NCBI GenBank assembly: GCA_015654675.1
Contig: JAATGM010000051.1
Coordinates: 248,001 to 312,000 of the forward strand
Source: Planctomycetota bacterium
GTDB taxonomy: Bacteria > Planctomycetota > Phycisphaerae > UBA1845 > UTPLA1
Direction: 5' to 3'
Length of the DNA: 64,000 nucleotides
Shown here: one piece after another, positions 2,357 to 18,222 of the stretch
Layout: each line of letters starts with the position of its first letter
How positions within the stretch are numbered: position 1 is the first letter of the stretch
Translations under genes and position numbers: made by a program
The notes under the pieces: model-generated
The model's input: the letters and a program-made list of their open reading frames with translations, nothing else
Told to the model about the DNA's origin: nothing
Database searches by the model: none

Positions 2357-3925
2357 CGGCTCAGCCGCGTCCGCGGGTTTGTCGCTCGGTACGCCCGGCG
2401 TGGGGCTCGGCTTGTAATCCGCGGCCGGCCACTCGCGCATGTCATCGCGCATCTTGGCGGGATCAAACTTGAGATCGGCGGGGCTTCTCTCGCGAATCTG
2501 CCAGCCGCCACCCAGCGCCCGATAGGTCGCCACCAGTCCCAGCGCGATGTTGCCCTTGGCCTGCGCGAGCTGGTCCTGCTGCTGCACGAGGTTCTGCTCC
2601 AGCAGAGACACGCGGTTGAAGTCGACCATGCCCGCCTTGTATTGCGCCAGCGAAACCTGCACCGCCTTCTCCGCGGCCGACACGCTTTCGGCCAGTGCCG
2701 TCGCCTGCTGTTGCGACTTGAGGAATCGCACGATCCCATCCTCGACTTCGGCGTTCGCGGTCAGCACGGCGTTTTCATAACTTGCGACCATCTGCTGAAA
2801 CTGGGCCGCTTCGAGGTGATAGACACTCAGCAGCCGGCCGTAGTTGAGCACTTTCCACGCGTACGAAGGGCTGACGCTCGCCTCAAACGCGCGGCTCTGG
2901 AACGCGTCATCAAAGTGCTGCGCCTGCCAGCCCAGATTGCCGATAATCGAAATCGCCGGATAGAAATCCGACTCGGCAATCCCCACGGCGGCGCACTGGG
3001 CCGCCGCCAACCGTTCCTCGCGCCGCACATCCGGCCGCCGGCGAAGCAGGTCGGCCGGAATGCCGACCACGACCTCATTCGGCGCCGTCGGAATCGGCGC
3101 GTCGCTCAGCCGCGGACGCAAATCGATGGTCGGAACGCCAAGCAGCACGCAGAGCCGGTTATTCGCCTGCCGCGACCGAATGTCCAGTTGCGGAACCTGC
3201 GCTTCAGTCTGCGAGAGCGTGCTCTGCGCCTGGTCGACGTCCAGCTCGGCCGATTCGCCGCTCTGGAAGCGCGCCCGCGCGATATCAAGCGTCTGTCGCT
3301 GCAAGGCCACGTTGGCCCGCACATAGACCAGCTGCTGCTCGATGGTTCGATACTCGACATAGCTGTTGGCCACGTCGGCCAGGAGCGTCACGAGGACGTC
3401 ATCGTAGTTGTCGACCGACGCATCGAGCTGCGCCGACGACTGCTCGATGGCCCGCCGGAAGCGGCCCCAGAAATCCAGTTCCCACGATGCCTCGGCACCA
3501 AACTGCCACTGGTTGTCGTAGGGCTCCGAGACGTACGGCCGATTCGCGACCTCGCGGCTGAGGGCGTTACGCGAATAGCCGCCCACCGCTTCCTGCTTTT
3601 GCGGAAAGAGGTTTCCGATTGAGTAGTCGAGTTTCGACCGCGCCGTCAGTACGCGCCAGCCGGCCTCGCGGAGCGTCAGGTTTTGTCGGTAGGCATCGTC
3701 GATCAATGCGTCAAGTTTCGAGTCGTTCAGGGCCTTCCACCAAGCCGCGTCGCTTTCGCCCGATTTGCGAACGCGCGTGTCCGACGCGTCGATCCAGTCC
3801 TTCGACGCCTCAGCCGGCGGGCGGCGAAAGTTGGGCCCGACTTTGAAGCCGTTACGGAAGTATTCACCGGGGGCCGTGCAGCCGCAGAGCAGTGCCGCCA
3901 GACATGCCGCGCGTGCGCTTCGCAT
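2345..3925 (-). CDS. Outer-membrane efflux lipoprotein, TolC/OprM (NodT) family
   Basis: 526 residues, the size of OprM/NodT-type outer membrane channels that complete RND tripartite pumps. The N-terminus has a short hydrophobic signal ending in AALLCGC, so Cys16 is a likely lipidation site. Two internally repeated OEP domains are recognisable: coiled-coil stretches such as YVEYRTIEQQLVYVRANVAL and EVEDGIVRFLKSQQQATAL, and the conserved GVPADLLRRRPDVR-like segment (here VGIPADLLRRRPDVRREERL). GGAGAG lies just upstream of the ATG. The gene is convergent with the AcrB-like permease at 2-2356 rather than co-directional, but they are presumably partners. No periplasmic adaptor gene is visible in the window; it may lie upstream. 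Confidence 0.93.
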   Translation of the reverse strand: MRSARAACLAALLCGCTAPGEYFRNGFKVGPNFRRPPAEASKDWIDASDTRVRKSGESDAAWWKALNDSKLDALIDDAYRQNLTLREAGWRVLTARSKLDYSIGNLFPQKQEAVGGYSRNALSREVANRPYVSEPYDNQWQFGAEASWELDFWGRFRRAIEQSSAQLDASVDNYDDVLVTLLADVANSYVEYRTIEQQLVYVRANVALQRQTLDIARARFQSGESAELDVDQAQSTLSQTEAQVPQLDIRSRQANNRLCVLLGVPTIDLRPRLSDAPIPTAPNEVVVGIPADLLRRRPDVRREERLAAAQCAAVGIAESDFYPAISIIGNLGWQAQHFDDAFQSRAFEASVSPSYAWKVLNYGRLLSVYHLEAAQFQQMVASYENAVLTANAEVEDGIVRFLKSQQQATALAESVSAAEKAVQVSLAQYKAGMVDFNRVSLLEQNLVQQQDQLAQAKGNIALGLVATYRALGGGWQIRERSPADLKFDPAKMRDDMREWPAADYKPSPTPGVPSDKPADAAEPSGR

Positions 3926-4089
3926 GAATGCTCTCCGTCACCTGACGTGCTCCGGCGAAGGATTTGTCAGCACGCGGGGCTGATAGTGTCGGCGAGCCGT
4001 GCGGCCATTGTCAATTCCAATCGCTTTCATCTTGCCGCGTCGTCGTGGTATGCTCCGCCCGATGAGTGGTTCCAATAAACGCGCAGGCC

Positions 4090-5232
4090 ATGACTCAGAA
4101 ACCCGCTAGCACACCTGCCGCCGATCCCGTCGTCGTGTTGCTGGTCGATGATCAGGCCATCGTCGGCCACGCCGTCAAACAAATGCTCGCCGCGGAGCCG
4201 GGCATACAGTTTCATTTCTGCCAGGACCCGCTCAAGGCGATCGAGACGGCCAACCAGGTTCACCCGACGGTCATCCTGCAGGACCTCGTCATGCCGGACA
4301 TGGACGGCCTGACTCTGCTCAAATTCTTCCGCGCCAACGAAGCCACGCGCGAAACACCCATGATCGTCCTCTCCAGCAAAGAGGAGCCCGAGATCAAGGC
4401 CAAGGCCTTCGCCCTCGGCGCCAACGACTACCTCGTGAAGCTCCCCGATCCGATCGAGCTGATCGCCCGCATTCGATATCACTCGCGCGCCTATCGCGCC
4501 CGGCTGGAGCGCGATCAGGCCTTCGCCGAGTTGGCGGAGCTGAATCGCGATCTCGAGAAAAAAGTCGCCGAACGGAGCGCCGAGCTGGTCAACGGCCGCG
4601 ACACGCTGATATTCGGCCTCGCCAAGCTGGCCGAATCGCGCGATAACGAAACCGGCCTGCACCTCGAACGAATTTGCCTCTATGTCGAGATCCTCGGTGG
4701 GGCGATGCTCGCCCGCGGTGCCACCGAAATAAACCATGCCTGGGTGCAGATGGTCACCCGGACGGCCGTCCTGCACGACATCGGCAAGGTGGGAACACCG
4801 GACGCCGTTCTCCGCAAGCCCGGCAAGCTGACGGACGACGAGCGCAAGATCATTCAGAAACATCCCTGCATCGGCGGCGACGCCCTCATCGCCATCAAGG
4901 GCCGCTGGGGAGAGAACCCGTTTCTCAATACCGCCAGCGAAATCGCCCTCTGTCACCATGAAAAATGGGACGGGACCGGCTATCCCTACGGCCTGCGCGG
5001 CGAGACAATCCCGCTGGCGGCCCGCATCGTCGCACTGGCCGATGTGTACGACGCCCTGACCAGCGCCCGCGTCTACAAGCCGGCCATGCCGCACGCAGAG
5101 GCCGTCGCGCGTATCACCGCCGACGCCGGCACGCATTTCGACCCGCGCGTGGTCGAGGCATTCGTAACAGTGACTGATCGCTTCCGCGAAATTGCGGACG
5201 CCCACCGCGACGTGGTTGGAAAAGAAGCATGA
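4090..5232 (+). CDS. Response regulator with WspR-like receiver and HD-GYP c-di-GMP phosphodiesterase output
   Basis: 380 residues. An N-terminal REC domain (about 15-135) has the acidic pair D20-D21, phosphoacceptor D65 in VILQDLVMPD, and K118 in ANDYLVKLPD. A charged coiled coil (about 136-170) leads to an HD-GYP domain (about 172-375) with HD at 229-230 and DGTGYP at 294-299, the signature of c-di-GMP phosphodiesterases. The REC strings VILQDLVMPD and ANDYLVKLPD match what I recall of the Wsp system regulator WspR, which carries GGDEF instead. An in-frame GTG exists at 4066; ATG at 4090 is preferred by similarity to the paralogue. The stop overlaps the next gene's start (ATGA), so the two regulators are translationally coupled. 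It probably takes phosphate from the CheA encoded nearby. Confidence 0.93.
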   Translation: MTQKPASTPAADPVVVLLVDDQAIVGHAVKQMLAAEPGIQFHFCQDPLKAIETANQVHPTVILQDLVMPDMDGLTLLKFFRANEATRETPMIVLSSKEEPEIKAKAFALGANDYLVKLPDPIELIARIRYHSRAYRARLERDQAFAELAELNRDLEKKVAERSAELVNGRDTLIFGLAKLAESRDNETGLHLERICLYVEILGGAMLARGATEINHAWVQMVTRTAVLHDIGKVGTPDAVLRKPGKLTDDERKIIQKHPCIGGDALIAIKGRWGENPFLNTASEIALCHHEKWDGTGYPYGLRGETIPLAARIVALADVYDALTSARVYKPAMPHAEAVARITADAGTHFDPRVVEAFVTVTDRFREIADAHRDVVGKEA

Positions 5233-6440
5233 GCGAACCCGCTAAGACTGCCGACGCGCCCAATCCCGCTGTTCCGACGAACGACGTGGTCAAGGTGCTC
5301 CTCGTCGACGACCAGGCCATCGTGGGTCACGCCGTCAAGCAGATGCTCGCACCCGAGGCCGACATCCAATTGCATTTCTGCCAGGACCCGCTCAAGGCCG
5401 TTGCCACCGCCAACGAACTCGGCCCGACCGTCATCCTGCAAGACCTCGTCATGCCCGACATCGACGGCCTCACGCTGCTCAAGTTTTTCCGCGCCAACGC
5501 CGCCACGCGTGAAACGCCCATGATCGTGCTTTCGAGCAAGGAAGAGCCGGCCGTGAAGGCGCAGGCCTTTTCGCTGGGGGCCAACGATTATCTCGTCAAG
5601 CTGCCCGATCGCGTCGAACTGGTGGCCCGAATCCGCCATCACTCGGCCGGCTACGTCGCGCAGCTTCAGCGCAACGAGGCCTATCGCAAACTGGCCGAGA
5701 GCGAAAAGCGCCTGGCCGATGAAGTGGCCGAAGCGGCCAAGTATGTGAAGTCGCTCCTCCCGCCCGTGATGAAAGAGGGGGCGGTTCGGATCGACTGGCG
5801 ATTCGTGCCCTCCACGCAGCTCGCCGGCGATGCCTTTGGCTATCACTGGCTCGACGAAAAGCGGCTGGCCGTCTATCTGCTTGATGTCAGCGGCCACGGC
5901 GTTGGCTCGGCGTTGCTGGCCGTCTCGGTGCTCAACACGCTGACGCACCAGTCGCTGCCCAAGACCGATTTCGGCGACCCCGGCGCGGTGATGAACGCCC
6001 TGAACAAGATTTTCGAAATGGATCGCCACGGCGGAAAGTTTTTCACGATCTGGTACGGCGTCTGTGACCTTGCCGCCCGTAAAGTCACCTTCAGCGGCGG
6101 CGGCCACCCGCCCGCGCTGCTCTTCAGCCGTTCTGGTGGCGCGGTGAAAGTCGACGAACTCGAGCCAACCGGCCCGATCATCGGTCTGCCGCCCTTCATG
6201 GACTTTGAAAACCACACCGTCGAGCTGCCACCCGATTGCGCCTTGCTGCTCTACAGCGACGGCGCCATCGAGATCGAAGACCTGCAGGGCCATATGCACA
6301 ATCAGGAGCAATTCACCGCGTTTGCGCGCGAGCAGACCGGCTGGGACAACGTCCTGAACCAGTACGTCGAACGCGCCCACACCCTGCGCGGCCATGCATC
6401 GTTGGCTGATGATTGCAGCTTGCTTTTTATTCGTCTCTAA
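5229..6440 (+). CDS. Response regulator with WspR-like receiver and PP2C (SpoIIE/RsbU-type) phosphatase output
   Basis: 403 residues. The REC domain (about 20-142) is nearly identical to that of the preceding gene, with phosphoacceptor D72 and K124. A short helical linker is followed by a PP2C-type Ser/Thr phosphatase domain (about 185-400). Metal-binding aspartates are visible in QLAGDAFGYHW (D201) and LLDVSGHGVGSALL (D219), with LLLYSDG near the C-terminus. Phosphatases of this kind dephosphorylate STAS-domain anti-anti-sigma proteins in partner-switching systems; a STAS-containing protein is encoded at the head of the facing operon (14169-14930). The gene overlaps the HD-GYP gene by 4 nt and its stop codon overlaps that of convergent cheR by 4 nt. 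Confidence 0.93.
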   Translation: MSEPAKTADAPNPAVPTNDVVKVLLVDDQAIVGHAVKQMLAPEADIQLHFCQDPLKAVATANELGPTVILQDLVMPDIDGLTLLKFFRANAATRETPMIVLSSKEEPAVKAQAFSLGANDYLVKLPDRVELVARIRHHSAGYVAQLQRNEAYRKLAESEKRLADEVAEAAKYVKSLLPPVMKEGAVRIDWRFVPSTQLAGDAFGYHWLDEKRLAVYLLDVSGHGVGSALLAVSVLNTLTHQSLPKTDFGDPGAVMNALNKIFEMDRHGGKFFTIWYGVCDLAARKVTFSGGGHPPALLFSRSGGAVKVDELEPTGPIIGLPPFMDFENHTVELPPDCALLLYSDGAIEIEDLQGHMHNQEQFTAFAREQTGWDNVLNQYVERAHTLRGHASLADDCSLLFIRL

Positions 6441-7297
6441 ACCGGCTCGCCCGGCTTTCGATACAGCAGCGTCCGACCGACTCTAACGGTTTCAAAGCGA
6501 TCGGTGATTCCAAAAAGACTCTCCGCCGCGCCCAGTGCCAGCCATCCGCCCGGATAAAGCGTGCCGTGCATTCCCTGGCAGACGCGCCGTCGAGTGGCTT
6601 CGTCGAAGTAGATCAGCACATTGCGGCAGAGAATGAGGTCAAAGGCCCCGAGCTGCGTCGGCGGTTGCATCAGATCGAAGCGCTGAAACTGCACGAGTCG
6701 CCGCACCGGCTCCGTGATCATCCATGCCTTGCCGTCGCGACTGCAATGTCGCTTGAGATGGTCCTCGGAGAGCCCGCGCCGCACTTCACTCGCCAGGTAG
6801 CGCCCCGCGCGGGCCGTCTCGACCGCATCCGATGAGATGTCGCTCGCCAGAATCGTAAACTGCGTCTCGCTCATGCCCGAGTCCGGGTCATCGACCAGGT
6901 CGCGCACGATCATGGCGAGACTGTATGGCTCCTGTCCCGTTGAACAGGCCGCCGACCAGATTCGAATCCGGTGCCGCTTGCCGCCGCTGGACTTCAAATT
7001 GGCGATGCACGCGGGCAACACGACGCGCCGAATCGCCAGGAACAATGCCTGATCGCGAAAGAAGCCTGTCTCCTTCGTCGTGATGGCTTCGACGATGGCG
7101 TCGTGCAGTCGCGGCGCATTGCGCCCCTGCAATCGCTCCAGCAACTGCTCGTAACTGCTCAGCCCCTCACGCACGAGGATCGGCTCGAGCCGATGCCGAA
7201 TCAGGTAGTCCTTGTTCGGCCCCAGCACGAGCCCGCACAGTCGGTGGACCAATTCGGCAAGTCGCCGTCCGGTGTCGGCCGAGAGTTCCATCTTCAC
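6437..7297 (-). CDS. cheR: Chemoreceptor glutamate methyltransferase CheR
   Basis: 286 residues, normal CheR size. It methylates receptor glutamates using S-adenosylmethionine. The N-terminal helical domain (about 1-85) includes TTKETGFFRD, the family landmark before the catalytic domain. The SAM-binding loop is RIWSAACSTGQEPYSLAM (about 112-129), and the conserved LILCRNVLIYFDE lies around 221-233. There is no C-terminal TPR, unlike WspC of the Pseudomonas Wsp system. It is the last gene of the che operon; its start overlaps the cheB stop by 4 nt, implying translational coupling. The MCP of this cluster has no C-terminal tether pentapeptide. Confidence 0.96.
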   Translation of the reverse strand: MKMELSADTGRRLAELVHRLCGLVLGPNKDYLIRHRLEPILVREGLSSYEQLLERLQGRNAPRLHDAIVEAITTKETGFFRDQALFLAIRRVVLPACIANLKSSGGKRHRIRIWSAACSTGQEPYSLAMIVRDLVDDPDSGMSETQFTILASDISSDAVETARAGRYLASEVRRGLSEDHLKRHCSRDGKAWMITEPVRRLVQFQRFDLMQPPTQLGAFDLILCRNVLIYFDEATRRRVCQGMHGTLYPGGWLALGAAESLFGITDRFETVRVGRTLLYRKPGEPV

Positions 7298-8382
7298 GCG
7301 GTTGGACCCTGGCTGATCGCGGCCGCAGCCGAAGCGATCTCGGTAACCGGTCGGATGTCATCCACCACCCCCGCCTGAACCGCGCAGCCGGGCATTCCCC
7401 ATACCACGCTGCTAGCCTCGTCCTGCGCGATTACGTAGCCACCGCCGCGCCGCACCGCTCCCAGCCCAACGGTGCCGTCATTGCCCATGCCGGTCAGGAT
7501 GATCGCCAGTACGCCGCCTCCGAACGCCGCCGCCACCGATCGAAACAGCACATCGGCCGACGGCCGGCAACCGTTCTCCGGCGGCCCGTCGCTCAGCCCG
7601 ATACTGGGCGCTGCCGCCGTGCCGCGTACCAGCATGTGCCGGCCGCCGGGCGCAATGAACACCCGCGCCGCCGAGAGCGGCATGCCGTCAATCCCCTCGA
7701 CGACCGGCTGCCGCGCCTGCCGCGCGAGCGATTCGGCCAGCGATTGCGTAAATCCGGGTGGCATGTGTTGCACGACAACAATCGGCAGCCGCGTACTCGC
7801 GCACAGACCGGGCAACACCTCGGACAACGCCCTGGGCCCGCCGGTCGATGCCCCGATCGCGATGATGTCGGGCGCCGCTTTCCGCCGGGCGCCCGCCCGA
7901 GGCGGCGGTGGGGGGGTGGCACGCGGAGCGACGGCAGTTGTGCGCATCCCGGGTCTTAGCCGTGCGCAGGCCCGGATTCGCGGCAGAAGATCGTCGCGCA
8001 GTGCCGCCAGATTCGCATCAGGCGACGGACCGCTCGGCTTGGTGACAAAATCGAACGCGCCACGCTCGAGCGCGCGAACAGTCACATCGGCGCCCCGCCG
8101 CGTAACCGCGCTGACCATGATCACCCCGACCGTCTCGCCCGCCGGTCGACCGGCGTTGAATGCCATGATCTGCTCAAGCGTGGCGACGCCGTCCATGCCG
8201 GGCATTTCAACGTCCAGCGTGACCACCTGCGGCGGCGATTTGCGGATGAACTCCATCGCCTTCGCCCCGTTGAATACGGAGCCGACCACGCGCATGTCCG
8301 GCTGGCCGCCCAGCACCTGCTCAAGCGCCGCGCGAAACAACCGCGAATCGTCGACCACCAGTACCCCGATACGATCACCCAT
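7294..8382 (-). CDS. cheB: Chemotaxis protein-glutamate methylesterase/deamidase CheB
   Basis: 362 residues from the ATG at 8382 ([14 protein letters not shown]), chosen because the receiver domain begins immediately; further upstream the frame encodes only a Pro/Arg-rich stretch lying within the MCP gene. The REC domain (about 1-125) has D11-D12 and phosphoacceptor D57 in [12 protein letters not shown] proline-rich linker (about 153-165) leads to the methylesterase domain with catalytic triad S179 ([11 protein letters not shown]), H206 ([10 protein letters not shown]) and D302 ([11 protein letters not shown]). It overlaps the MCP stop by 8 nt and the cheR start by 4 nt. Phosphorylation by CheA normally activates this enzyme to provide adaptation. 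Confidence 0.96.
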
Positions 8383-10645
8383 GGTCGTTCGTCGCCGCGG
8401 GCCGGGCCCCGGTGTTGAAGTGTTCGACGCTCTTCTGGAGCCGGCCGGCAATTTCCTTCAGCCGCCGCGCGGATTCGTCAACCTTGACCGCGCTGGCATT
8501 GTTCAAACGCGTCGCCTCGCTTACGCCGTGGATGCTCGATGCGATCGACTGCGAGGCGGTGGCGGCCTCGGCCGCGTTGCGCGACGCGTCGTTCGCGGCC
8601 TTGGCCGCTTCGGCCGTGTTGCTCGAGGCGTCGTTCGCGCCCTTGGCAACCTCGGCGATTGAACGCGCGATGTCCTCGACTCCCTTGCGGGCCAGGGCAA
8701 TGTCACTCGTGATCCGTCCGGCCGTTTCGGTCTGCGTACCGACGGCGTCAGAGATCCGGCCGGCCGACGTGTTGATTTCTCCGATGGATCTGGCGACGTT
8801 TTCAATCACCTTGACGGCTTCGCGCGTGCTGGCCTGCACACTCTCGATCTTCCGCGCGATCTCTTCGGCCGACTGTCCGCTTTGGTTCGCGAGGTCCTTG
8901 ATTTCCCCTGCGACGACTGCAAATCCGCGGCCCGCCTCGCCGGCCGACGTGGCCTCGATGGTCGCATTCAGCGCCAGCAAATTGGTCTGGATCGCAATAG
9001 TTTTGATGACGTCGGTAACCTTCGTGATGTCGCTGGCCGCCTGATCGAGCTGCCGCATGGCGGCGTTGGCCGCGGTCGCCATGTCGCGGGCTTCGTGCGT
9101 CATGGCCGAGCCCTTCTTCGCGTCGCGGGCCGTCTCCTGCAGCGAGCTGGTGATGTGCCCGACTGACTCGGCCACCGAGCCGATGATCCGGCTGCCCGAT
9201 TCGGCACTTGACGAGATCGTTCCGACGTTGACGGAGACCTGCTCGCTCGCCGACGAAATGCTTGCGATGTTCACGCACATTTCCTCGGCCGCCGCCGCCA
9301 TGCTCGAAATATTCTGCGAGAGCTGCTCGGTCCCGGCTGCGACCGTCTCGGCCTGCGTCGCCATTTCGTGGCTCTGCGACAGCAGATCGTGCGAGACCCC
9401 CAACAAATCGTTGGCTGCCTCGCCCAGCCGTCCCGCCAGCGCGCGAATCTGCGTCACCACTTCGCAGAGCGTCGCGGCCATCTGGTCCGACGCGTGCCCC
9501 AGCCGCCCGATTTCATCCTGGCGATCCAGATTCATTCGCCGCGTCAGGTCGCCTGACGCCAGTGACTCGAACACCTGCAGGCCGACGCCCACCGGGCGCG
9601 TGATCGAGCGGATGATGATGACCGCCAGCGCCAGTGCGATCAGCGACCCAAATGCCGCAGTGCCGATCAGGATCGAGCGGCCCATGCGGTTCTGCCAGTC
9701 GGCATTTTTTTTCTCGTCTTCCAGCCGCGCGCTGAGCGAATTGATCAGTTCCGTCATCGCCGCGTCACAGCGATCGGCGAACTCGACCGTTTTTGTGGTC
9801 GTGAGCATGCGAGCCGTCTGATCGTTATTCAAGTGCGACAGTTCGAGAACCCGCGTCACCATTTGCTTCACGCCCTCCAGGACCGCCATCGTGCCGGCGG
9901 CCCGCGCCCGGTCCGACTCGCCGAGCAGATTGTTCAGCCGCCATACACTGTCCTGAAACGCACTCAAGCGCGCCCGCACGACGCCGTCCAGTTGCGACAT
10001 TTCGATCTCGCCAAACGCATCAAGGTGAACTCCGGTGAAGTAAAGCAACTCGAAGTAATTCCCCAGCATCGCCCGTCCGGCCGCCGCCCGCTCGGCGACG
10101 CGCCCATCGTTGGCCGGCCGGCTGGTCGCTCCGGCCTCTCCGCTCAAACTGGCGACAAAATCCTCGACCTCCTGCGCACGCCGGTAATAATCCGAGAGCA
10201 GCAGCTTGCGGCCCTCCATTAATGACTTGACGGCCGTCAACCGCAGCACTTCCTTCTGGTTTCGCAGCAGGTCGTCGCAGGCCTGGTCGAAATCTGATAG
10301 TGCCTTGCCCTCGCGCGTCCCGAGGTTCGTTCCCACCAACTTGGCCAGATCAGTCCGGTCCGCCGCCAGGTCCTTCCACTCATTGCGCGCCGCGTCGGCG
10401 AACTCGCCCGCCCGGGCCGCGTCCATCGAAAGGACTGCATTCTTCTCGGCGCGGATCGCCTGTAACACGTCGATTCGCGTCGCCTCGGCCGTCACCAGCG
10501 CGCGGCTATCAACATCGATCAGATGCTCGAAGCGGTCGTCCATCTGGGCGAACTGCCGGACGCCCACCACGGTGATCGCGACGCTGCTGATCACCAGCAC
10601 GGCCACCAGGATGCCGATCTTCGTGGCGAGACTCAGATTCTTCAC
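8375..10645 (-). CDS. Methyl-accepting chemotaxis protein (transmembrane chemoreceptor)
   Basis: 756 residues. TM1 (about 9-29) and TM2 (about 324-346) flank a long periplasmic helical sensor domain of nearly 300 residues, somewhat larger than a standard four-helix-bundle MCP sensor. A HAMP domain follows (about 347-400), then a long signalling coiled coil whose hairpin tip contains [20 protein letters not shown] and [18 protein letters not shown]. The distal coil has an Ala/Asn/Ser-rich stretch. The C-terminus ([10 protein letters not shown]) lacks an NWETF-like tether for CheR/CheB. It is the only receptor in the cluster, between cheW and cheB, so it probably defines the input of this array; in topology it is comparable with WspA. 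Ligand unknown. Confidence 0.95.
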
Positions 10646-10697
10646 GGATCGCCTCTCAATCTGTTCAACGGCCGCGCCCGACTCGATTGAGCCGGTC

Positions 10698-11183
10698 CTA
10701 GCCGATTGCCTTTTCCGTTGCCTCGATAAGCCGGATCGGATCGACGATCAGCATCAGCTCGTCCGCGAGTTTGCAAACGCCCGAAACCGCCGATGGCCGG
10801 CTCGCACCGCCTGCCTGCACGGCCCCGTCGGCCGCCGCATCTTCAATCTGTTCCTGCGCTACCTGCACGATTTCACCGCCGCGATCGACGAGCAGGCCGA
10901 CATGCTCCGCGACGCCGGCCTGCAGAACAACCAGCCGGCTCTCCGCGGTTCCGGCCGCGACCGGAAACCCCAGCGCGGCCCGCAGGTCGAGCACAAGATG
11001 GATCCGGCTCCGCAGATTGGTCAGACCTCGGACAATCGCCGGGGCCTGCGGTACCGGCGTGACCGCGATCTGTGTGCTGACTTCGCGCACGAAGCACACC
11101 TCGATGCCGTAAAGCCGTTCATATACGCGGAAGGTGACGAATGTGCGCGTCACCGGGGCCGACACGGTCGCAAGACTACTCAT
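10698..11183 (-). CDS. cheW: Chemotaxis coupling protein CheW
   Basis: 161 residues, one CheW/SH3-like domain that bridges receptor and CheA. Recognisable segments are [25 protein letters not shown]-like [20 protein letters not shown] (the canonical region before the first conserved loop), and a C-terminal stretch [20 protein letters not shown] with [12 protein letters not shown]. The start overlaps the cheA stop by 8 nt. It is followed by a 52-nt gap before the MCP gene. It is the only stand-alone CheW in the cluster, whereas Wsp systems have two. Confidence 0.93.
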
Positions 11184-14157
11184 GTTGCGCCCCTCCCGCG
11201 ACCAGCGCCGCCGGACGGCCGGATGTCAGCAGCGACCGAATCGTTTCAAGAAACGTTTCGCGGTTCAGCTTGACCTCGTATGCGTCGAAGCCCGCCGAGC
11301 GGGCCTTGCGCCGGTCCTCCTCGCTGCTGAGCGAAGTCAGGGCCAGCATGGGCAGCCGATCGAACCGGCCATCCCGCCGGACTTCGCGTGCCAGCGTCAG
11401 TCCGTCCATGACCGGCATCTCGATATCCGAGACGACCGCGTCGAACGATTCGGCGTTCAGTTTTTCGAGTCCTTCGGCGCCGCTGCCCGCGGCTGCGACT
11501 TCCCAGCCCTCGGCCGCCAGATAGCTGGTGACGAGCCGCCGGAAGAACTCCGTATCCTCGACGACAAGAACTCTCTTTCGAGCCGACGGGCCCGGAAGCG
11601 CGGCGGGAGCTACGCCATGCTCTATCTCCCACATCGCAATCAGCCGGAAGACATCGAGAAAGATCGCAATTTGCCCAAGGATGAGACCCGATCCAAGAAT
11701 TCCGTCGGCGCGATAGGCGCGATCGTCGAGCCGCAAGTCGAGCGTCGGCGTGTCGACAATCTCGGAGGCAAGAAACCCGGCCGGCGCCTTGGCCTGCCTC
11801 GGCAGAATCAGGAAGCTGCCGCGCGATTCGTCAAAGCCCGAGACGCGCAGAAAACGGTCGAGCCGCAGCACATTCGTCGGCGTCCCGTCGATCGCGATCA
11901 TCTCGCGCTCGCCGACGCGCTCGATTTGCTCCGGACGAATCGACACGATTCTCCGCACGTCACCCAGCGGAACGGCAAACAGTTCGGCGGTGCCATAGCG
12001 AAACAGCAGCAGAGCACCGGTTTCCATCGCCTCCGCGGCGGCAGGAAGCTCGGCCCGCACCTCGCGCCGCTGACGATGCACAATTCCGCTGTGCCGTGCC
12101 AACCCCTCGCAGCTCAGGATCAGCACCACCCGGCCGTCACCCAGGATCGTCGCCGCACCATAACTCCCAAGCCGTCGCAACAGCGGATGCAGCGGCTTAA
12201 CGACGATCTCCTCGCTTCCCAGCACGTCGTCCACCACCATGCCGAAGCGCAGCGCACCAAAGCGAAGAATGGCGACGTATCCGCGCGTCAGCTCAGCCGA
12301 TTGGCCGTGATGTCGATCAGCGATCGCGGCGCACGTGTCCGCGCTGAAGGGCTCGCGCCGCCGCAATACTTCGGCCAGTCGCATGACCGGCACCAGCTTG
12401 CCGCGCAGCCGCAGCACTTCCTCATGATCCGCGCACTCGATGCGCGCCTTCGTCTCGCTCCGCAGCAGGACGACCTCCTCGACATCCCGAAGCGGAATCG
12501 CGAATCGCTCGCCCTCGCTCGTCATCAGCAGGCATGGCAGAATCGCCAGCGTCAGCGGCAATCGCAGCGTAAACGTCGCCCCCTCGCCAAACACCGAGTC
12601 GATCTCAACCACGCCGCCGATCTGTTCCAGATTCGTCCGCACCACATCCATGCCGACGCCGCGCCCGGAAAGATCCGTCACGCGCGACGCCGTCGAGAAA
12701 CCGGACAGCAGGATGAGTTCGTTCACCTCTCGCTCGCTCATGCGATCAAGCTCATCGCGCTGCTTGACGCCCTGCTGCATGGCCTTTCGCTTGATCGCGT
12801 CGCGATCGAGTCCGCGCCCGTCATCCTTGATCTGAATGACGATTTGCCCGCGTTCCTGCCGCGCCGCCAGCCGAATCAGGCCGTTCGGACTTTTGCCGGC
12901 GCGGCCGCGCTCGTCGGGCGTCTCTATTCCATGATCGCAGCAGTTGCGCATCAGGTGCGTCAGCGGATCGGCCAGTGTTTCGAGGACCGTCTTGTCCAGC
13001 TCCACGTCGGCCCCGGCGATCTCCAGGTCGATCTGTTTTCCAAGTTGCCGCCCCAGGTCGCGAACCAGCCGGGGAAAGCGATCAAACAGCGCGCCCACCG
13101 GCTGCATCCGCATCCGCAGCGCCGCGTCCTGCATTTCATTCGTCAGTGCGTCCAGCCGCCGCAGGAGCTGTCGCTGCGTGTCAACGCCGGCGTCGGTCGA
13201 TCGTTTGGCTTGGTTGCGCACCAGCACCAGCTCGCCCGCCAGACTCATCATGCGATCGATCAGCGTCACCGGAATCCGCAACGACCCACCGGCCGCCGGA
13301 CCTCGCGGCCCGGCCTGCGCACCCCCCTCTGGCTTCTTTTCCTGCGGCTTGTTTGCAACGCTTTCCAGTCGAACGATCGCCGCGCACGGAATTTCAAGTT
13401 GCTGCGCGAAGTCCTCGGACGGCAGCGCCGATGACACAATCGTCCAATACCAGAGTGGGGGGGTCGGAAGGCCGTCCGCGAGCGTCAGGCCGGTCAGTTC
13501 CATGCGCGCGTCGAGCGAGGTCCCCGCCCGCTCGATCCGCCGCGCAACTTCCAGCGGTGAGAGTCCCAGGTCGCGCTCGGCCTCGAACCAGTCGAGCTTC
13601 ACGCCGTAGAGAAATGACGCATGTCGCTCCCACGTCTCAAGCACGCGCGGCGAAATGGGGAATTCGCTTACGGCGGCGGTCGATTTTGCAAGCGTCGTTG
13701 TCCGCGGCGTGGAGCTCGCCTGACTGGGGGTGATCTGTCGCGCCGAAATTTTCTTGGCCGGCTCGGTCGACGCTTCGCCGGCGGCTACCAGCGGCTGCAA
13801 TCGCTCGAGCGGGGCGGTGATGTCCGCCCCTTGGCTGTGCTCGGCGTCGTCGACCAGCGCGCTGAGCCGATCGAGTGCGAAGAGCAGCGTATCGATCACC
13901 TCGGCGCTGGCCGCAATGCGTCCGTCGCGAACATTCTCAACCGCGGTTTCCATCGCGTGCGACAGCCGTTCGATGGTCGTCAGCCCGCTAAACCCCGCTC
14001 CACCCTTCAGACTGTGCGCCGAGCGCAGAATACGAGCCACTTGCTCGGCCGGGTCTGACGCGCCGCGCTCCAGCTCCACGATCGCCGCCGAGAGCGCCGC
14101 GAGATGCTCGCGTGCCTCGACGACAAAGCGTTGTTGTTGGTTCGACTCTGCCGCCAT
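11176..14157 (-). CDS. cheA: Hybrid chemotaxis histidine kinase CheA with C-terminal receiver (WspE-like)
   Basis: 993 residues. Domains in order are: Hpt (P1) about 5-115 with phospho-accepting H48 in RSAHSLKGGAGF; a divergent linker/P2-like region (about 160-290); dimerisation domain starting near RIPVTLIDRMMSLAGELVLV; HATPase with N-box LMRNCCDHGIE, IKDDGRGLD and GRGVGMDVVRTNLEQIGG; a first CheW-like domain after LPLTLAILPCLL; a second CheW-like domain (about 720-850, GALLLFRYGTAELFAVPLGD); and a C-terminal REC (about 860-985) with D911 in SDIEMPVMDG and K963. The C-terminal REC is the arrangement of WspE and other alternative-function CheAs, where it acts as sink or output. Two CheW-like domains are unusual. 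The start lies 11 nt after the Hpt-STAS stop. Confidence 0.94.
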   Translation of the reverse strand: MAAESNQQQRFVVEAREHLAALSAAIVELERGASDPAEQVARILRSAHSLKGGAGFSGLTTIERLSHAMETAVENVRDGRIAASAEVIDTLLFALDRLSALVDDAEHSQGADITAPLERLQPLVAAGEASTEPAKKISARQITPSQASSTPRTTTLAKSTAAVSEFPISPRVLETWERHASFLYGVKLDWFEAERDLGLSPLEVARRIERAGTSLDARMELTGLTLADGLPTPPLWYWTIVSSALPSEDFAQQLEIPCAAIVRLESVANKPQEKKPEGGAQAGPRGPAAGGSLRIPVTLIDRMMSLAGELVLVRNQAKRSTDAGVDTQRQLLRRLDALTNEMQDAALRMRMQPVGALFDRFPRLVRDLGRQLGKQIDLEIAGADVELDKTVLETLADPLTHLMRNCCDHGIETPDERGRAGKSPNGLIRLAARQERGQIVIQIKDDGRGLDRDAIKRKAMQQGVKQRDELDRMSEREVNELILLSGFSTASRVTDLSGRGVGMDVVRTNLEQIGGVVEIDSVFGEGATFTLRLPLTLAILPCLLMTSEGERFAIPLRDVEEVVLLRSETKARIECADHEEVLRLRGKLVPVMRLAEVLRRREPFSADTCAAIADRHHGQSAELTRGYVAILRFGALRFGMVVDDVLGSEEIVVKPLHPLLRRLGSYGAATILGDGRVVLILSCEGLARHSGIVHRQRREVRAELPAAAEAMETGALLLFRYGTAELFAVPLGDVRRIVSIRPEQIERVGEREMIAIDGTPTNVLRLDRFLRVSGFDESRGSFLILPRQAKAPAGFLASEIVDTPTLDLRLDDRAYRADGILGSGLILGQIAIFLDVFRLIAMWEIEHGVAPAALPGPSARKRVLVVEDTEFFRRLVTSYLAAEGWEVAAAGSGAEGLEKLNAESFDAVVSDIEMPVMDGLTLAREVRRDGRFDRLPMLALTSLSSEEDRRKARSAGFDAYEVKLNRETFLETIRSLLTSGRPAALVAGGAQHE

Positions 14158-14168
14158 CGCGTCGTCGC

Positions 14169-14930
14169 CTACGCGCCCGGGCCCAGGGTTCGGTCCAGCG
14201 CCGTCACGCGCAACATCGCCGCTACCGCGCCGGACCCACCGCGAGCGGTCATCGTCGGGGGTGGTTCAAGCCGGGCCGCCTCGCGCGTCGCTGAGACTAG
14301 CAACGCCAAGGCGCGCGTGCTGATGGTCTTCACCTGCCGGAAATCAATTTCAATCGGCCCGGAGTCGCCATCAAGCCCCGCGAGGAGCTGGCCGCGCAGC
14401 GCCTCTGCCGCGCCATCGCCGAAATCGGCCGGCAGTACGATCTTCCGTGCAGCCCCGCCCTCCACGCTCGCCGCCGGCGCCGAAATGGGCGCGGCCTCGA
14501 CTGGCGGCGGTGGCGCAGTGGCCACCACTTTTCCCTCTTTCACCGCCGTCAGTTGTGCGACGACCGAATCAAGCCACGCCTCGGTCATGTCCGCTTCCGG
14601 TTGCAGGGCGCAAATTCGCTGCAACGCGTCCACGCCGGCCAGCAGTACGTCAACCGCGTCGCTCGAAAGAATGGAGCGCTTCTCCTTCGCCGCCGTGAAG
14701 CAGTCTTCCATCACGTGTGCGACCCGAACCGCCGCGTCGATCCCGACAATCCGCGCCGCCCCTTTCACCGAGTGCGCCGCGCGCATCATCGACGCGACAG
14801 ATTGGTCGTCGGCCTGGCCCTTTTCCATCGCCAGCAGTCCCTGGCTCAATACGGGAATGTGCGTGTCAGACTCGGCCCGAAATAGTTCGACGAGTGCGGG
14901 ATCAGCGTTCGTTCCGAAGGGGTCGCCCAC
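14169..14930 (-). CDS. Hpt-STAS fusion protein, first gene of the che operon
   Basis: 253 residues, GTG start preceded by GGAAG. The N-terminal half (about 10-125) is a histidine phosphotransfer domain with H53 in AAHSVKGAARIVG. A Pro/Ala-rich linker (about 138-160) joins it to a C-terminal STAS-like domain (about 165-250), recognised from IEIDFRQVKTISTRALALLV and the downstream helix/strand pattern ending RVTALDRTLG. Aligned by eye to SpoIIAA-type STAS proteins, the D-S-S-G phosphosite becomes S204-T205-R206-A207, so a hydroxyl residue (T205) sits at the phosphorylated position but the preceding aspartate is gone. Hpt is certain in my view, STAS probable. Its position beside cheA and a PP2C regulator suggests a link between phosphorelay and partner switching (inference). 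Confidence 0.82.
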   Translation of the reverse strand: MGDPFGTNADPALVELFRAESDTHIPVLSQGLLAMEKGQADDQSVASMMRAAHSVKGAARIVGIDAAVRVAHVMEDCFTAAKEKRSILSSDAVDVLLAGVDALQRICALQPEADMTEAWLDSVVAQLTAVKEGKVVATAPPPPVEAAPISAPAASVEGGAARKIVLPADFGDGAAEALRGQLLAGLDGDSGPIEIDFRQVKTISTRALALLVSATREAARLEPPPTMTARGGSGAVAAMLRVTALDRTLGPGA

Positions 14931-14995: not shown

Positions 14996-15601
14996 CTACT
15001 TCGACGCGGCCGCCCGCTGCGATGCCGTCCAGAGCTCGCGAAAAAGCCGCGCCAACTGCGGCGGCTGATAGTGCGCATTCAGCCCGCTCGGATTCGGCAA
15101 CACCCAGATCGTCGATGCCCCCATGAGTTCGTGCTGACGCCCGATGGCCGCCTCCGGCCGGGCAAATGCCGTTCGATACGACGTCAGCCCGACAATGGCC
15201 ACGAACTTCGGTCGATACCGCCGCACCTTGCGGGTCAGCAGATTCGCCCCCTCGCGCAGCTCTTCGCGCGAAAGCTCGTCGGCCGTCGCCGTCGATCGAT
15301 CCACCAGATTTGTGATTCCAAAACCGTCGGTAAGCAGCAGTTCTTCTTCGTAGGCAGAATAGAGCCGCGGCGTGAACCCGCCCGCGAGCATGGCCGGCCA
15401 GAATCGGTTGCCCGGCCGCGCGAAATGATGTCCGGTCGCCGCTGAATAGAGTCCCGGATTGATCCCGACAAACAACACGCGCAGGCCGCGCCGAATGATG
15501 TCCGAAACCGTCAATTCGCGCGCCGCCTCCAATTCGGCCCGCGTGGGCCGTCGTCGATTTTGTGTCGCATCAAGCCGTTCGGCCCGTTCCATGTAGCTCA
15601 T
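14996..15601 (-). CDS. mug: G/T(U)-mismatch-specific uracil/thymine DNA glycosylase, Mug family
   Basis: 201 residues from ATG 15601 (MSYMERAERL); a second ATG at 15592 is possible. The Mug active-site region VLFVGINPGLYSAATGHHFA, the RPGNRFWP segment and the C-terminal loop VLPNPSGLNAHY are clear. The enzyme excises uracil or thymine opposite guanine after cytosine deamination, in the cytoplasm, as part of base excision repair. The start lies directly after the stop of the upstream MFS gene (TAG-G-ATG), so the two are probably co-transcribed. An in-frame upstream extension of 44 residues overlaps the MFS gene, has no resemblance to the family, and was excluded. Confidence 0.92.
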   Translation of the reverse strand: MSYMERAERLDATQNRRRPTRAELEAARELTVSDIIRRGLRVLFVGINPGLYSAATGHHFARPGNRFWPAMLAGGFTPRLYSAYEEELLLTDGFGITNLVDRSTATADELSREELREGANLLTRKVRRYRPKFVAIVGLTSYRTAFARPEAAIGRQHELMGASTIWVLPNPSGLNAHYQPPQLARLFRELWTASQRAAASK

Positions 15602-15602
15602 C

Positions 15603-16853
15603 CTACTCCGATTGCGCCGCCGCGATCCTCGGTCGCAGCAAAGCGGCCGCAACCAACGCGAGCAACGCCATTGCCGCGCCAAACCAAAATGTCGCCGACG
15701 GACCGACACGATCCCAAAGCACGCCGCCGACAATGCTCGCCAATAGCGTCGTCAGTCCGCTGAGCATGTGAAAGACACCGAGTGCCGCCCCGCGCCGCGA
15801 TTTCGGCGCGTGGTCGGCGATTAGCGCTTTGCCCACGCCGTCGGTCGCCGCCATGTAAATGCCATAGAGCGCCAGCAACGCCCAGACACCGCGCGGCCCC
15901 GTGATCGCGAACCCCGCATATACCGCCATATATACAATCCACCCCAGTCCAATGATCCGCCAGCGGCCAATGCGATCGCTCAGCACACCCGCCGGATACG
16001 AGGCGATAGTGTAGGTCGCATTGAATAGCGCGTAAGCCAGCACCACCGTGGCCGGCGAATATCCCAGATCGCGCGCCCGCAGCAGCAAAAAAGCATCCGT
16101 GGAGTTTGCCAGGGCGAAGATCAGCAGAATGGCCAGCGTCCGCCAGTATCCCGCCGGCAGACCCAGCCGCCCGCCGATCGTAGTCGCCGCGCGATCGGCG
16201 TCGTCATGCGCCGTCGTCGGCTCACGCACGAGAAGCGTGAGTCCGAGCGACAACAGCCCGAACGCCGCCGAAATCCCGAAAACCAGCCGAAACACCCAGC
16301 CAGAATCGCCCGTGCCCGTCTCGCCAACCTGCGGCGCATGAGCGCGTCCGAACCACCACAGCAGCGCCGCCGACACCAGCACGCCCACCAGCGCCCCGGC
16401 CGTGTCCATCGCGCGGTGAAACCCAAAGGCCCGCCCGCGAATATCCGCACCGGCTGCATCGGCGATCAACGCATCACGCGGACTCGAACGCAGGCCCTTC
16501 CCCAGCCGATCAATCAGGCGTCCGGCCAGCACCATCGGCCAGGCCACGGCCAGCGCCAGCAGCGATTTGCCGATCACCGGAATGCCATAGCCCAACCGAA
16601 CGAACGGCACGCGCCGTCGAACGCGGTCGCTCTGCAGCCCCGCCCAACCCGTCATGATCGCCGCCATGCACTGCGCCGCGCCCTCGATCCCGCCCAGCGA
16701 TGTCGCCGTCGCCCCCAGCACACCGACGACAAACAGCGGGATCAGCGGATAGACCATCTCCCCCGATATATCCGCCAGAAACGATACCCAGCCGAGCAAG
16801 ATGACCGTGCGGGGCAATGCTCGACTCTGCGATGGTGCTCGCTGTGTATCCAT
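15603..16853 (-). CDS. Major facilitator superfamily transporter
   Basis: 416 residues from ATG 16853 (MDTQRAPSQS), about twelve hydrophobic segments. The MFS loop 2-3 type motif is present as LIDRLGKGLRSSPRDALIAD, and the region DTAGALVGVLVSAALLW is typical of the YfcJ/YwoG-like bacterial MFS proteins annotated as putative drug or sugar exporters. The substrate cannot be told. The frame extends 32 codons upstream, but that stretch (Arg-rich) does not look like a transporter N-terminus. It is upstream of and nearly fused in transcript with mug, and divergent from the PEP-CTERM gene at 17062, whose promoter region lies within its upstream sequence. Confidence 0.88.
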   Translation of the reverse strand: MDTQRAPSQSRALPRTVILLGWVSFLADISGEMVYPLIPLFVVGVLGATATSLGGIEGAAQCMAAIMTGWAGLQSDRVRRRVPFVRLGYGIPVIGKSLLALAVAWPMVLAGRLIDRLGKGLRSSPRDALIADAAGADIRGRAFGFHRAMDTAGALVGVLVSAALLWWFGRAHAPQVGETGTGDSGWVFRLVFGISAAFGLLSLGLTLLVREPTTAHDDADRAATTIGGRLGLPAGYWRTLAILLIFALANSTDAFLLLRARDLGYSPATVVLAYALFNATYTIASYPAGVLSDRIGRWRIIGLGWIVYMAVYAGFAITGPRGVWALLALYGIYMAATDGVGKALIADHAPKSRRGAALGVFHMLSGLTTLLASIVGGVLWDRVGPSATFWFGAAMALLALVAAALLRPRIAAAQSE

Positions 16854-16908
16854 GCGCACTCTGGCCGATCTCTCGCCCGTTTTCCTTCGCACCGGGGTCC
16901 GCGGCAAA

Positions 16909-16960
16909 TTGAATCCGCGGGCGGAATTCCGTATGATATGCCCAATCAAAGTGGTTGGGC
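16909..16960 (+). promoter_or_regulatory. Sigma70-like promoter with an inverted repeat at the start site
   Basis: TTGAAT (16909-16914), a 17-nt spacer and TATGAT (16932-16937) form a good vegetative promoter reading toward the PEP-CTERM gene at 17062. A 6-bp inverted repeat GCCCAA/TTGGGC with a 9-nt loop (16940-16960) covers the expected transcription start, where a repressor operator could sit. The leader would be roughly 115 nt. Seen directly; the function is inferred. Confidence 0.5.
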
Positions 16961-17061
16961 GGTCAACTCAATCGAGCGACCAATCAGCAGTACGACCAAC
17001 AGTTGAGCTGGATATCGCTGCTTCCGAGTGAAGCGCGATCCGGCCTTACAGGAGAGGATGT

Positions 17062-18009
17062 ATGCGAATTCATCGTGCGATTGGTTTTTGCGCTTGCGCG
17101 TGGCTGGCGGCGGCCGCTTCGACCGCGTCAGCCCAGCTCGTCTTCGGTACAACGACCGCGGCGACCACCAACGGGTCGGCCTTCTACCTGGATGTCAACA
17201 CATCCCAGGTAACCACGCTTTGGAACTCCGCTGCCAATAAGAAAGTCAACGGCCTCGCGGCCGATCCGGCCACTGGTCGGCTCTACTCGAACGATGCCGC
17301 CCGCCTCAACTATTGGAACTATGGCGACATCGGCACGACTCCGACCTTCATCGCCGGCATGTATCGCACGAACGACAACGTTACCTTCACCGCCACGGGC
17401 GTGGATGGCTTGGCCTTCGCCAACGGCAATCTCTACGGGGCGACGTCTTTCTCGAGCACAATCTATAAGCGCGGAATCTATCGCGTCTCAACGACCTCTG
17501 ACGGCCAGAGCCCGACCCCGCACAGCGTCATGACGCCGCTCTGGCTCGACCCGACCGGCATCGGCACATCGAGCGGCACGCTTTCTCTGGGCGGCCTCGA
17601 GTTCAACCCGGCCAACAATCTCTTCTACATCACCAACTCGGCCGACACGACCGGAAGCGGCGGCACCTATACGCCGGGCATCTTCACCATCGATGCCTTC
17701 GGCTCAGGCGCGATCGTCAAGTTGATGGACTTTCCGCTCGGCCACACCCGCATCGACGGACTCGCGATCGGCGGCGGCAAGCTCTGGATGACCGAGCAGG
17801 ACGGGACCAACTCCCGCATCAACATCTTCCCATACGATCTGGCCACTCAGACCCTGGACCCGACCATCTTTGTCCCGCTCGCCGAGACGGGCAATCGCGC
17901 CAGCGGCGCGGCCTGGGCGCCCGGCGCCATCGCTCCGGAACCGGCCACGCTCAGTCTGCTCGGCCTGTCCGGCTTAGCCCTGCTGCGACGGCGGCGCGCG
18001 ACGCGCTAA
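17062..18009 (+). CDS. Secreted PEP-CTERM sorting domain protein, beta-propeller-like
   Basis: 315 residues. N-terminal signal peptide MRIHRAIGFCACAWLAAAAS with cleavage near ASAQ. The mature part has repeated segments such as VNGLAADPATGRLYSND and IDGLAIGGGKLWMTEQD, suggesting a small beta-propeller, ligand unknown. The C-terminus is a classical PEP-CTERM signal: PEP (PEPATLSLLG), hydrophobic helix, and RRRRATR tail, which marks substrates of exosortase for surface attachment or EPS association. A strong Shine-Dalgarno AGGAGAG precedes the ATG and a strong terminator follows at 18039, so it is a monocistronic gene. No exosortase gene is in the window. Confidence 0.9.
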   Translation: MRIHRAIGFCACAWLAAAASTASAQLVFGTTTAATTNGSAFYLDVNTSQVTTLWNSAANKKVNGLAADPATGRLYSNDAARLNYWNYGDIGTTPTFIAGMYRTNDNVTFTATGVDGLAFANGNLYGATSFSSTIYKRGIYRVSTTSDGQSPTPHSVMTPLWLDPTGIGTSSGTLSLGGLEFNPANNLFYITNSADTTGSGGTYTPGIFTIDAFGSGAIVKLMDFPLGHTRIDGLAIGGGKLWMTEQDGTNSRINIFPYDLATQTLDPTIFVPLAETGNRASGAAWAPGAIAPEPATLSLLGLSGLALLRRRRATR

Positions 18010-18038
18010 TCGTCGTTCCTCGATTCAATAGCAATATG

Positions 18039-18072
18039 AAGCCCTTCGGCGGAAACGCTGGAGGGCTTTTTT
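18039..18072 (+). terminator. Rho-independent terminator after the PEP-CTERM gene
   Basis: A 13-bp stem (AAGCCCTTCGGCG paired with CGCTGGAGGGCTT, two G-T wobbles) closed by a GAAA tetraloop, followed by a run of six T (18067-18072). It lies 30 nt after the stop codon at 18009. Confidence 0.93.
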
Positions 18073-18222
18073 CATATCGTCCTTCCTTGGTAGAATGCGA
18101 CATGGCCGTTTCAGGCGGCCGACGGTCCGCGTAAAGGGTTGAACCCGCCTGTTCGTTGTTCTGACATAACCTTCTTTCTGCCCGAAGATGCGGACGTTGG
18201 GCCTGCTGAAGGAAGGTTTCGC

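Follow-up and report, generated by a model that had tools for sequence, protein, structure and literature searches.

In a stretch of 64,000 nucleotides from a bacterium of the phylum Planctomycetota (class Phycisphaerae; GenBank assembly GCA_015654675.1, contig JAATGM010000051.1, positions 248,001 to 312,000; hereafter the window), a chemosensory gene cluster spans positions 4066–14930. Two plus-strand regulator genes converge on a packed minus-strand operon of six genes, encoding, in this order, Hpt-STAS, CheA, CheW, a methyl-accepting chemotaxis protein (MCP), CheB and CheR; both regulators carry a WspR-type receiver (REC), coupled to an HD-GYP domain in one and to a PP2C phosphatase domain in the other. 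In Hpt-STAS, a histidine phosphotransfer (Hpt) domain of the type found as P1 in Wsp kinases is joined to a STAS domain. With a probability of roughly 0.5, we take the cluster to be a chimera of two chemosensory kinds, with Hpt-STAS as a plug-in P1, phosphorylated by CheA and feeding imported WspR-type receivers. The basis in hand comprises domain content, motifs, the kinship of each part, gene order and recurrence; the docking of Hpt-STAS and the phosphotransfer are what we infer.

According to this reading, the receptor array would drive CheA, which would phosphorylate its own P1, serving CheB and the REC of CheA, and in addition, in trans, His53 of Hpt-STAS. The STAS half would dock Hpt-STAS on CheA, by analogy with the reported CheS, and the phosphate would be handed to both WspR-type receivers, upon which the HD-GYP regulator would remove cyclic di-GMP (c-di-GMP) and the PP2C regulator would dephosphorylate, and release, a STAS antagonist encoded elsewhere, i.e., in trans. 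Through Hpt-STAS as a plug-in P1, Wsp outputs would have become accessible to a second kinase lineage. At a little short of even odds, we place the broader proposition that Hpt-STAS serves as a phosphotransfer adaptor that can be detached—a CheA-docking STAS with a grafted Wsp-type P1, by which a CheA of unrelated lineage drives imported WspR-type regulators, the array having been rewired by a P1 swap in trans and kept across several planctomycete lineages.

The join of Wsp and partner-switching parts is notable because chemosensory classes are described, in a survey of Campylobacterota, to “rarely stir”, i.e., to mix components seldom (PMC9239204). The window’s cluster looks mixed at the most specificity-critical step, that from P1 to receiver, and the suggested route of mixing is for the matching P1 to arrive on a carrier of its own, which docks on the kinase already in place. 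Should this hold, it would offer a small testable system for the movement of signalling specificity between pathways, and receptor arrays would be linked to the removal of c-di-GMP as well as to Ser/Thr partner switching.

A CheA core of partner-switching kinship

The Wsp surface-sensing system of Pseudomonas is composed of WspA–WspF and WspR, and the earlier note on this DNA, made from the letters alone, had described the cluster as a Wsp-like array. The kinase does not bear this out. Relatives of CheA were sought in 397 genomes of the class, with 2 to 6 candidates scored per genome, and 213 genomes gave a match at 1e-40; the 17 loci next by E-value after the own genome and a second one, G169 (59% identity), served as comparison loci (down to 2.7e-87, with 35–50% identity over all or part of the length). 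For the CheA tree, 53 cores were chosen by motif and a short search was run, four of the 17 comparison loci giving no row. In this tree, the seven CheAs that are linked to Hpt-STAS or fused to its Hpt form one clade (support in the Shimodaira–Hasegawa-like approximate likelihood ratio test, SH-aLRT, 95), which is sister to 13 partner-switching CheAs (92); the joint group, which also includes locus L002, has a support of 100, and the 32 CheAs of Wsp operons lie on the opposite side of a branch with SH-aLRT 100. In the window CheA, a core of this planctomycete partner-switching lineage is combined with two CheW domains and one REC.

By sequence, its core is from a planctomycete lineage whose other members have a REC-PP2C with an ordinary receiver, an RsbW-like kinase and a STAS gene upstream, and with which it shares the order CheA-CheW-MCP-CheB-CheR. 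The fullest related order reads REC-PP2C, RsbW-like kinase, STAS, CheA, CheW, MCP, CheB, CheR; a PP2C match is present in nine of the 17 comparison loci, and Pfam searches of related loci returned RsbW-like HATPase_c_2 in 4/4, STAS in 3/3 and REC-PP2C in 1/1 tested. The WspR-type receiver motif was found in none of the 17, of which L193, L225, L227 and L229 are shortened by contig ends. A STAS profile search, which took in 14 of them (the three shortest were excluded), found a free STAS gene next to cheA, on its upstream side, in 12, the two others being L225, in which the contig is cut inside cheA, and L232. It is the slot of this free STAS gene that Hpt-STAS takes.

A simple Wsp array is ruled out both by the SH-aLRT 100 split of the CheA tree and by the gene content. 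Like Wsp, the cluster has WspR-type output receivers, a Wsp-type P1/Hpt, a hybrid CheA, an MCP, CheB and CheR. Unlike Wsp, its CheA core is not of the WspE lineage, it has one CheW gene instead of two CheW-type genes, no TPR match was found by Pfam in the 286 amino acids of CheR, the outputs are HD-GYP and PP2C and not GGDEF, and its Wsp-type P1 is carried by a STAS protein apart from CheA; the sister operons are of the partner-switching kind. As an inventory, the earlier note agrees with Pfam, which returned MCP, CheW, CheA with a C-terminal REC, CheB and CheR on the minus strand, and there is no CheY-only gene, CheD, CheZ, GGDEF or TPR-bearing CheR among the eight genes, to which the search for CheY, CheD and CheZ was confined.

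Both partner-switching genes in chemosensory clusters and Wsp systems are already known. In the portions of the sources that were available, F7 stage 1 clusters hold anti-sigma antagonist and serine phosphatase genes (PMC7184735) and STAS genes stand within F-class gene orders (PMC9239204). There, as in the window, CheA, STAS and PP2C genes are together in one cluster, but these descriptions, as far as available, name no Wsp-type Hpt or WspR-type receivers. No report of the join of the two via a Wsp-type Hpt on a STAS carrier, of Hpt-STAS with CheA, or of a planctomycete partner-switching chemosensory operon was found in the open-licence literature, and the accessible parts of PMC7534058, PMC7666581 and PMC6194562 contain nothing on Hpt-STAS.

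Wsp-family parts and the recurrence of the arrangement

Kinship with the Wsp family is shared by the receivers of the two regulators, the PP2C domain of one of them and the Hpt half of Hpt-STAS. In the PDB, both regulators match WspR (3bre) best, via the receiver, and together with the HD_5 and SpoIIE matches this upholds the earlier description of two regulators with WspR-type receivers and HD-GYP and PP2C outputs. Relatives of REC-PP2C were collected by scanning named genomes with a seven-row alignment, and the best 80 of 577 were considered. Among these 80 loci, wspE with at least two further wsp-type genes is present in 44, a window-type CheA in six, a partial set in nine and none in 21, many contigs being short; WspR-type REC-PP2Cs are, thus, frequent neighbours of Wsp operons across several phyla (Planctomycetota, Lentisphaerota, Thermodesulfobacteriota, Acidobacteriota, Ignavibacteriota and others). 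In the PP2C domain tree, the partner-switching side of which consists of five rows from nine loci, the window domain clusters with the Wsp-operon REC-PP2Cs, apart from the partner-switching PP2Cs (SH-aLRT 100). The Wsp operons in question share the REC-PP2C family with the window; unlike the window, they have their own WspE-type CheA with attached P1 and WspB/C/D-type genes.

In three of these Wsp operons (L045, L046, L133; Phycisphaerales-type genomes), REC-HD-GYP is followed by REC-PP2C, which is the pair and order of the window. In two lineages, the HD-GYP and PP2C receivers are 75–80% alike within a locus and 58–66% alike across lineages, and this likeness would fit separate duplications as well as slow homogenisation; in L045, L046 and L133, the pair seems to have come together independently or to have been homogenised locus by locus. 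The two window receivers show no sign of a recent gene conversion, third codon positions being 54% identical; at identical residues, 57% of the codons are shared compared with 47% expected from codon usage.

Hpt-STAS, CheA, CheW, MCP, CheB and CheR with an adjoining WspR-type REC-PP2C are also found in five other loci. The regulator is situated at the CheR end, like in the window, in Planctomycetota NC_groundwater_1039 (G169; locus L119), and at the Hpt end in Gemmata sp. IIL30 (L068), a Planctomycetaceae metagenome-assembled genome (MAG; L089) and two Pirellula MAGs (L104, L105). As read from these loci, the arrangement recurs in four further planctomycete lineages, and in a fifth the Hpt is fused to CheA: a Pirellulaceae MAG (L060; contig ending inside the MCP) encodes a CheA of this type with the Wsp-type Hpt added at its N-terminus, a protein for which Pfam returned two Hpt stretches and no STAS match. 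Hpt-STAS, thus, stands with CheA in other planctomycetes, and the neighbourhood is not confined to one genome, a point on which the earlier note had made its claim depend. Full-length Hpt-STAS is rare, however: at the same 2 to 6 candidates per genome, it was detected in the own genome and G169 among the 397 class genomes and, by coverage of the STAS half, in the own genome only among 392 genomes of the phylum; absences in both sets are provisional, and three frames of the phylum set were short (G575 and G586 running off contig ends; G492, 282 amino acids).

In a 67-row Hpt tree, the Hpts of all six Hpt-STAS proteins and the fused Hpt of L060 group with 52 P1s of CheAs from REC-PP2C loci, mostly WspE (100/98), and the seven P1s of the own CheAs form a separate clade (96/82). 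The grouping of the Hpt-STAS Hpts with WspE-type P1s was obtained again in the 39-row set of an outgroup tree (98/96). The three residues following HSxKG read AAR or AGR in 6/6 Hpt-STAS proteins and in the fused Hpt of L060, and xAG in 7/7 own CheA P1s. A copy of the P1 of the own CheA was rejected as the source of the Hpt in an approximately unbiased (AU) test with outgroups (difference in log-likelihood 53, p-AU 0.0014), for which 82 rows were used, including 18 further CheA P1s as outgroups and with three long-branch rows removed beforehand.

According to the CheA-based search, WspR-type receivers accompany CheA in 2/2 class genomes with Hpt-STAS versus 0/17 loci without it, i.e., at about 0.006 by pair counting, in which kinship is ignored and four comparison loci are those shortened by contig ends. 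This association bears on the possibility that the P1 of CheA feeds the WspR-type receivers directly, Hpt-STAS being a phosphate sink or a CheS-like modulator that tunes signal lifetime. The H-box of that P1 is intact, and CheS of Sinorhizobium and Agrobacterium, a STAS-only protein, is reported to bind CheA and to steer phosphoryl flow between two CheYs (PMC12654446). Direct transfer nevertheless has to accommodate that the WspR-type receiver motif is near none of the 17 related CheAs lacking Hpt-STAS, that the added Hpt belongs to a family found with WspR-type receivers in Wsp operons, and that the L060 fusion supplies that very Hpt as an extra P1; we regard it as rather unlikely.

Fold, phosphosite and role of Hpt-STAS

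The STAS_2 match of Hpt-STAS falls below the curated cut-off of Pfam and was, therefore, checked by structure prediction. In an AlphaFold2 model from a six-row alignment (mean predicted local distance difference test score, pLDDT, 75.9), a fold search related the C-terminal half to anti-sigma antagonists (3f43, Z 11.9; RsbV in 6m36, Z 11.8) and the N-terminal half to the P1 of CheA (1i5n, Z 17.3). The model supports both the Hpt and the STAS half, and the predicted STAS fold is that of partner-switching antagonists such as SpoIIAA and RsbV. The Hpt-STAS protein claimed for the operon head is, thus, real, and its STAS assignment, the failure of which in structure prediction the earlier note had counted as decisive, withstood the check.

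At the position which we take to match the phosphoserine of SpoIIAA, the six Hpt-STAS proteins have Thr (window and G169), Pro (L068) and Ala (L089, L104, L105), so that the Ser/Thr conserved in SpoIIAA/RsbV-type antagonists is not retained across them, and the notion of this STAS as a conserved PP2C substrate is unsupported. In the free STAS proteins linked to cheA, the residue is Ser in 11 of 12 and Ala in the twelfth, L217. Because the phosphosite is unconserved and no RsbW-like kinase gene is among the eight genes of the cluster, Hpt-STAS is probably not the substrate of the PP2C and more likely a CheA-docking module. At L217, the STAS linked to cheA (6302–6625) has Ala and no PP2C match is found within its 15 kb, a T2SSE (PilT-like) gene lying near; a STAS can, therefore, stay beside cheA where Ser/Thr switching is impossible, which fits a docking role like that of CheS, and the L217 protein is possibly a pure CheA-docking STAS. 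CheS resembles Hpt-STAS in being encoded with cheA and in being thought to steer phosphoryl flow between receivers, but differs from it, in the description available, as a single STAS domain without Hpt.

These data also bear on classical partner switching, in which Hpt-STAS itself would be the anti-sigma antagonist, phosphorylated at Thr205 by an RsbW-like kinase from elsewhere and dephosphorylated by REC-PP2C, with the Hpt as tether or gate. Shared ancestry with operons that unite REC-PP2C, RsbW-like kinase and STAS, the Thr of the window and G169, the PP2C motifs and the presence of two strong RsbW-like genes on other contigs would suit it. Yet the remaining four members have P, A, A, A at the site, the cluster itself lacks an RsbW-like gene, both strong RsbW-like genes already adjoin a STAS of their own, and L060 keeps the Hpt with CheA in a protein devoid of a STAS match, which together make this explanation unlikely. 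Of the partner-switching branch that the earlier note had proposed, the ancestry stands, the lineage being rooted in a module of STAS, RsbW-like kinase and REC-PP2C; a switch on Hpt-STAS is what the unconserved phosphosite and the missing RsbW-like gene speak against. Comparable partner switches of PP2C, STAS and HATPase are HmpU/V/W of Nostoc and SiaABC of Pseudomonas (PMC8256260, PMC9239204), in which a PP2C phosphatase likewise switches a STAS protein but which, in the available text, are not described as joined to CheA through an Hpt.

As a further alternative, the phosphate might pass from the P1 of CheA to its C-terminal REC, on to Hpt-STAS and finally to the WspR-type receivers, similar to the phosphorelays of hybrid kinases. 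The C-terminal REC does have a phospho-acceptor motif, and a separate Hpt protein is encoded next door. However, the partner-switching relative L218, as tested with Pfam, has a REC on its CheA and no separate Wsp-type Hpt was seen there, so the REC probably arose first. In addition, the P1 of WspE is phosphorylated by WspE’s own kinase domain, and a multistep relay appears very unlikely.

Several observations weigh against the preferred reading of Hpt-STAS as a plug-in P1. Five of the seven Hpt-STAS or fusion loci came from the REC-PP2C search and are, therefore, uncountable in the receiver association. The position of REC-PP2C differs, on the CheR side for the window and G169 and on the Hpt side for the other five loci, so its link to Hpt-STAS is not one fixed operon, and 30 of the best 80 REC-PP2C loci lack a fuller Wsp set and are not of the window type either. 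The Hpt alignment has 107 columns; without outgroups, a copy of the own P1 was not rejected by the AU test (p 0.132, and in a further run p 0.569, with the held-together tree scoring 4.2 better). The window and G169 retain the phosphosite Thr and, therefore, partner switching is possible in those two. When the six members were scored against STAS profiles, three favoured the cheA-linked profile, two the general one and one was a tie; descent of the STAS half from the cheA-linked STAS is weakly indicated, its position carrying more than its sequence.

Locus layout, output targets and neighbouring genes

All eight reading frames are open, and their domain content was confirmed with Pfam (Table 1). 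The motifs sought, which are characteristic of the families, are all present, including those of an HD-GYP phosphodiesterase. Adjacent genes overlap by 4 or 8 bases or are spaced by 11 or 52. For CheB, the ATG at 8382 is a likelier start than the TTG at 8451, to which the open reading frame extends. The MCP has two hydrophobic segments, near residues 10 and 327, and its 4HB match is under the cut-off. That CheA has two CheW domains is absent from the earlier note; its stretch between P1 and P3, where a P2 domain might lie, varies among the six rows compared. The three CheW-domain matches of the genome (96% complete) are all inside the cluster, which is, therefore, the only array found in it. 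Promoter-like sites are at chance level (34 versus 31.9 expected).

Table 1. Genes of the chemosensory cluster (window positions) with their main matches and motifs.
Gene product	Position	Strand	Matches and motifs
REC-HD-GYP, WspR-type receiver, predicted c-di-GMP phosphodiesterase	4066..5232	+	Response_reg 1.5e-20, HD_5 4.1e-33; 3bre WspR 3.1e-56; 4r8z cyclic di-GMP phosphodiesterase 9.4e-55; LQDLVMP, HDIGK at 237, HHEKWDGTGYP at 297
REC-PP2C, WspR-type receiver and PP2C/SpoIIE phosphatase	5229..6440	+	SpoIIE 2.3e-40; 3bre WspR 8.4e-57; GDAF, DVSGHG, GGGHPP, YSDG, DDCS
CheR methyltransferase, 286 amino acids	6437..7297	-	CheR 1.8e-52, CheR_N 1e-10; ACSTGQE, CRNVLIYF
CheB, REC and methylesterase	7294..about 8382	-	CheB_methylest 1.6e-61
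MCP, transmembrane chemoreceptor	8375..10645	-	MCPsignal 1.1e-30, HAMP 1.1e-8, 4HB_MCP_1 9.5e-6
CheW adaptor	10698..11183	-	CheW 2.6e-25
Hybrid CheA: own P1/Hpt, dimerisation, HATPase, two CheW domains, C-terminal REC	11176..14157	-	Pfam
Hpt-STAS: Wsp-type P1/Hpt (His53) and STAS	14169..14930	-	Hpt 4.8e-15, STAS_2 1.4e-5

Candidate targets of the PP2C regulator were considered both beside its relatives and in the window’s genome. Among 87 REC-PP2C loci (80 named plus L043–L049, with a few duplicates), seven distinct ones (G169, L061, L070, L095, L096, L103, L112) have a free STAS no more than about 1.6 kb from a WspR-type REC-PP2C, and an RsbW-like gene near REC-PP2C was confirmed by Pfam in 5/5 tested (L070, L136, L095, L096, L112). 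The window’s genome has 15 SpoIIE domains, 13 STAS matches to PF01740 and, on two other contigs (C5 and C53), one strong RsbW-like gene each, adjoining a STAS; these two STAS proteins are the best candidate targets. It also holds, above cut-off, four GGDEF genes, one FliM and five PilT-family genes, which suggests that the possible end points include c-di-GMP, flagella and type IV pili. In G169 (L044, 3894–5362), a PilT-family ATPase gene and then a free STAS gene come after REC-PP2C, a neighbourhood suggestive of a link to type IV pili.

Gemmata sp. IIL30 contains both the Hpt-STAS system (L068) and a Wsp operon with REC-PP2C (L084/L242), which makes it a natural test of the insulation between them. 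In the window’s own genome, a second WspR-type REC-HD-GYP is encoded at L241 (G000:C62:244000-254000, 3104–9881) downstream of a hybrid histidine kinase with Y_Y_Y, PAS, HisKA, HATPase and two REC domains; a free Hpt protein and a REC-PP2C whose receiver is ordinary come after it. The HD-GYP/Hpt/PP2C trio is, hence, present twice in this genome, once without an array, and cross-talk between the L241 system and the array is possible.

The neighbours of the cluster are ordinary, with an AcrB-type transporter and an outer membrane efflux protein on the left (2–3925) and a member of the uracil-DNA glycosylase family, an MFS transporter, a PEP-CTERM protein and an ankyrin protein on the right (14996–19386).

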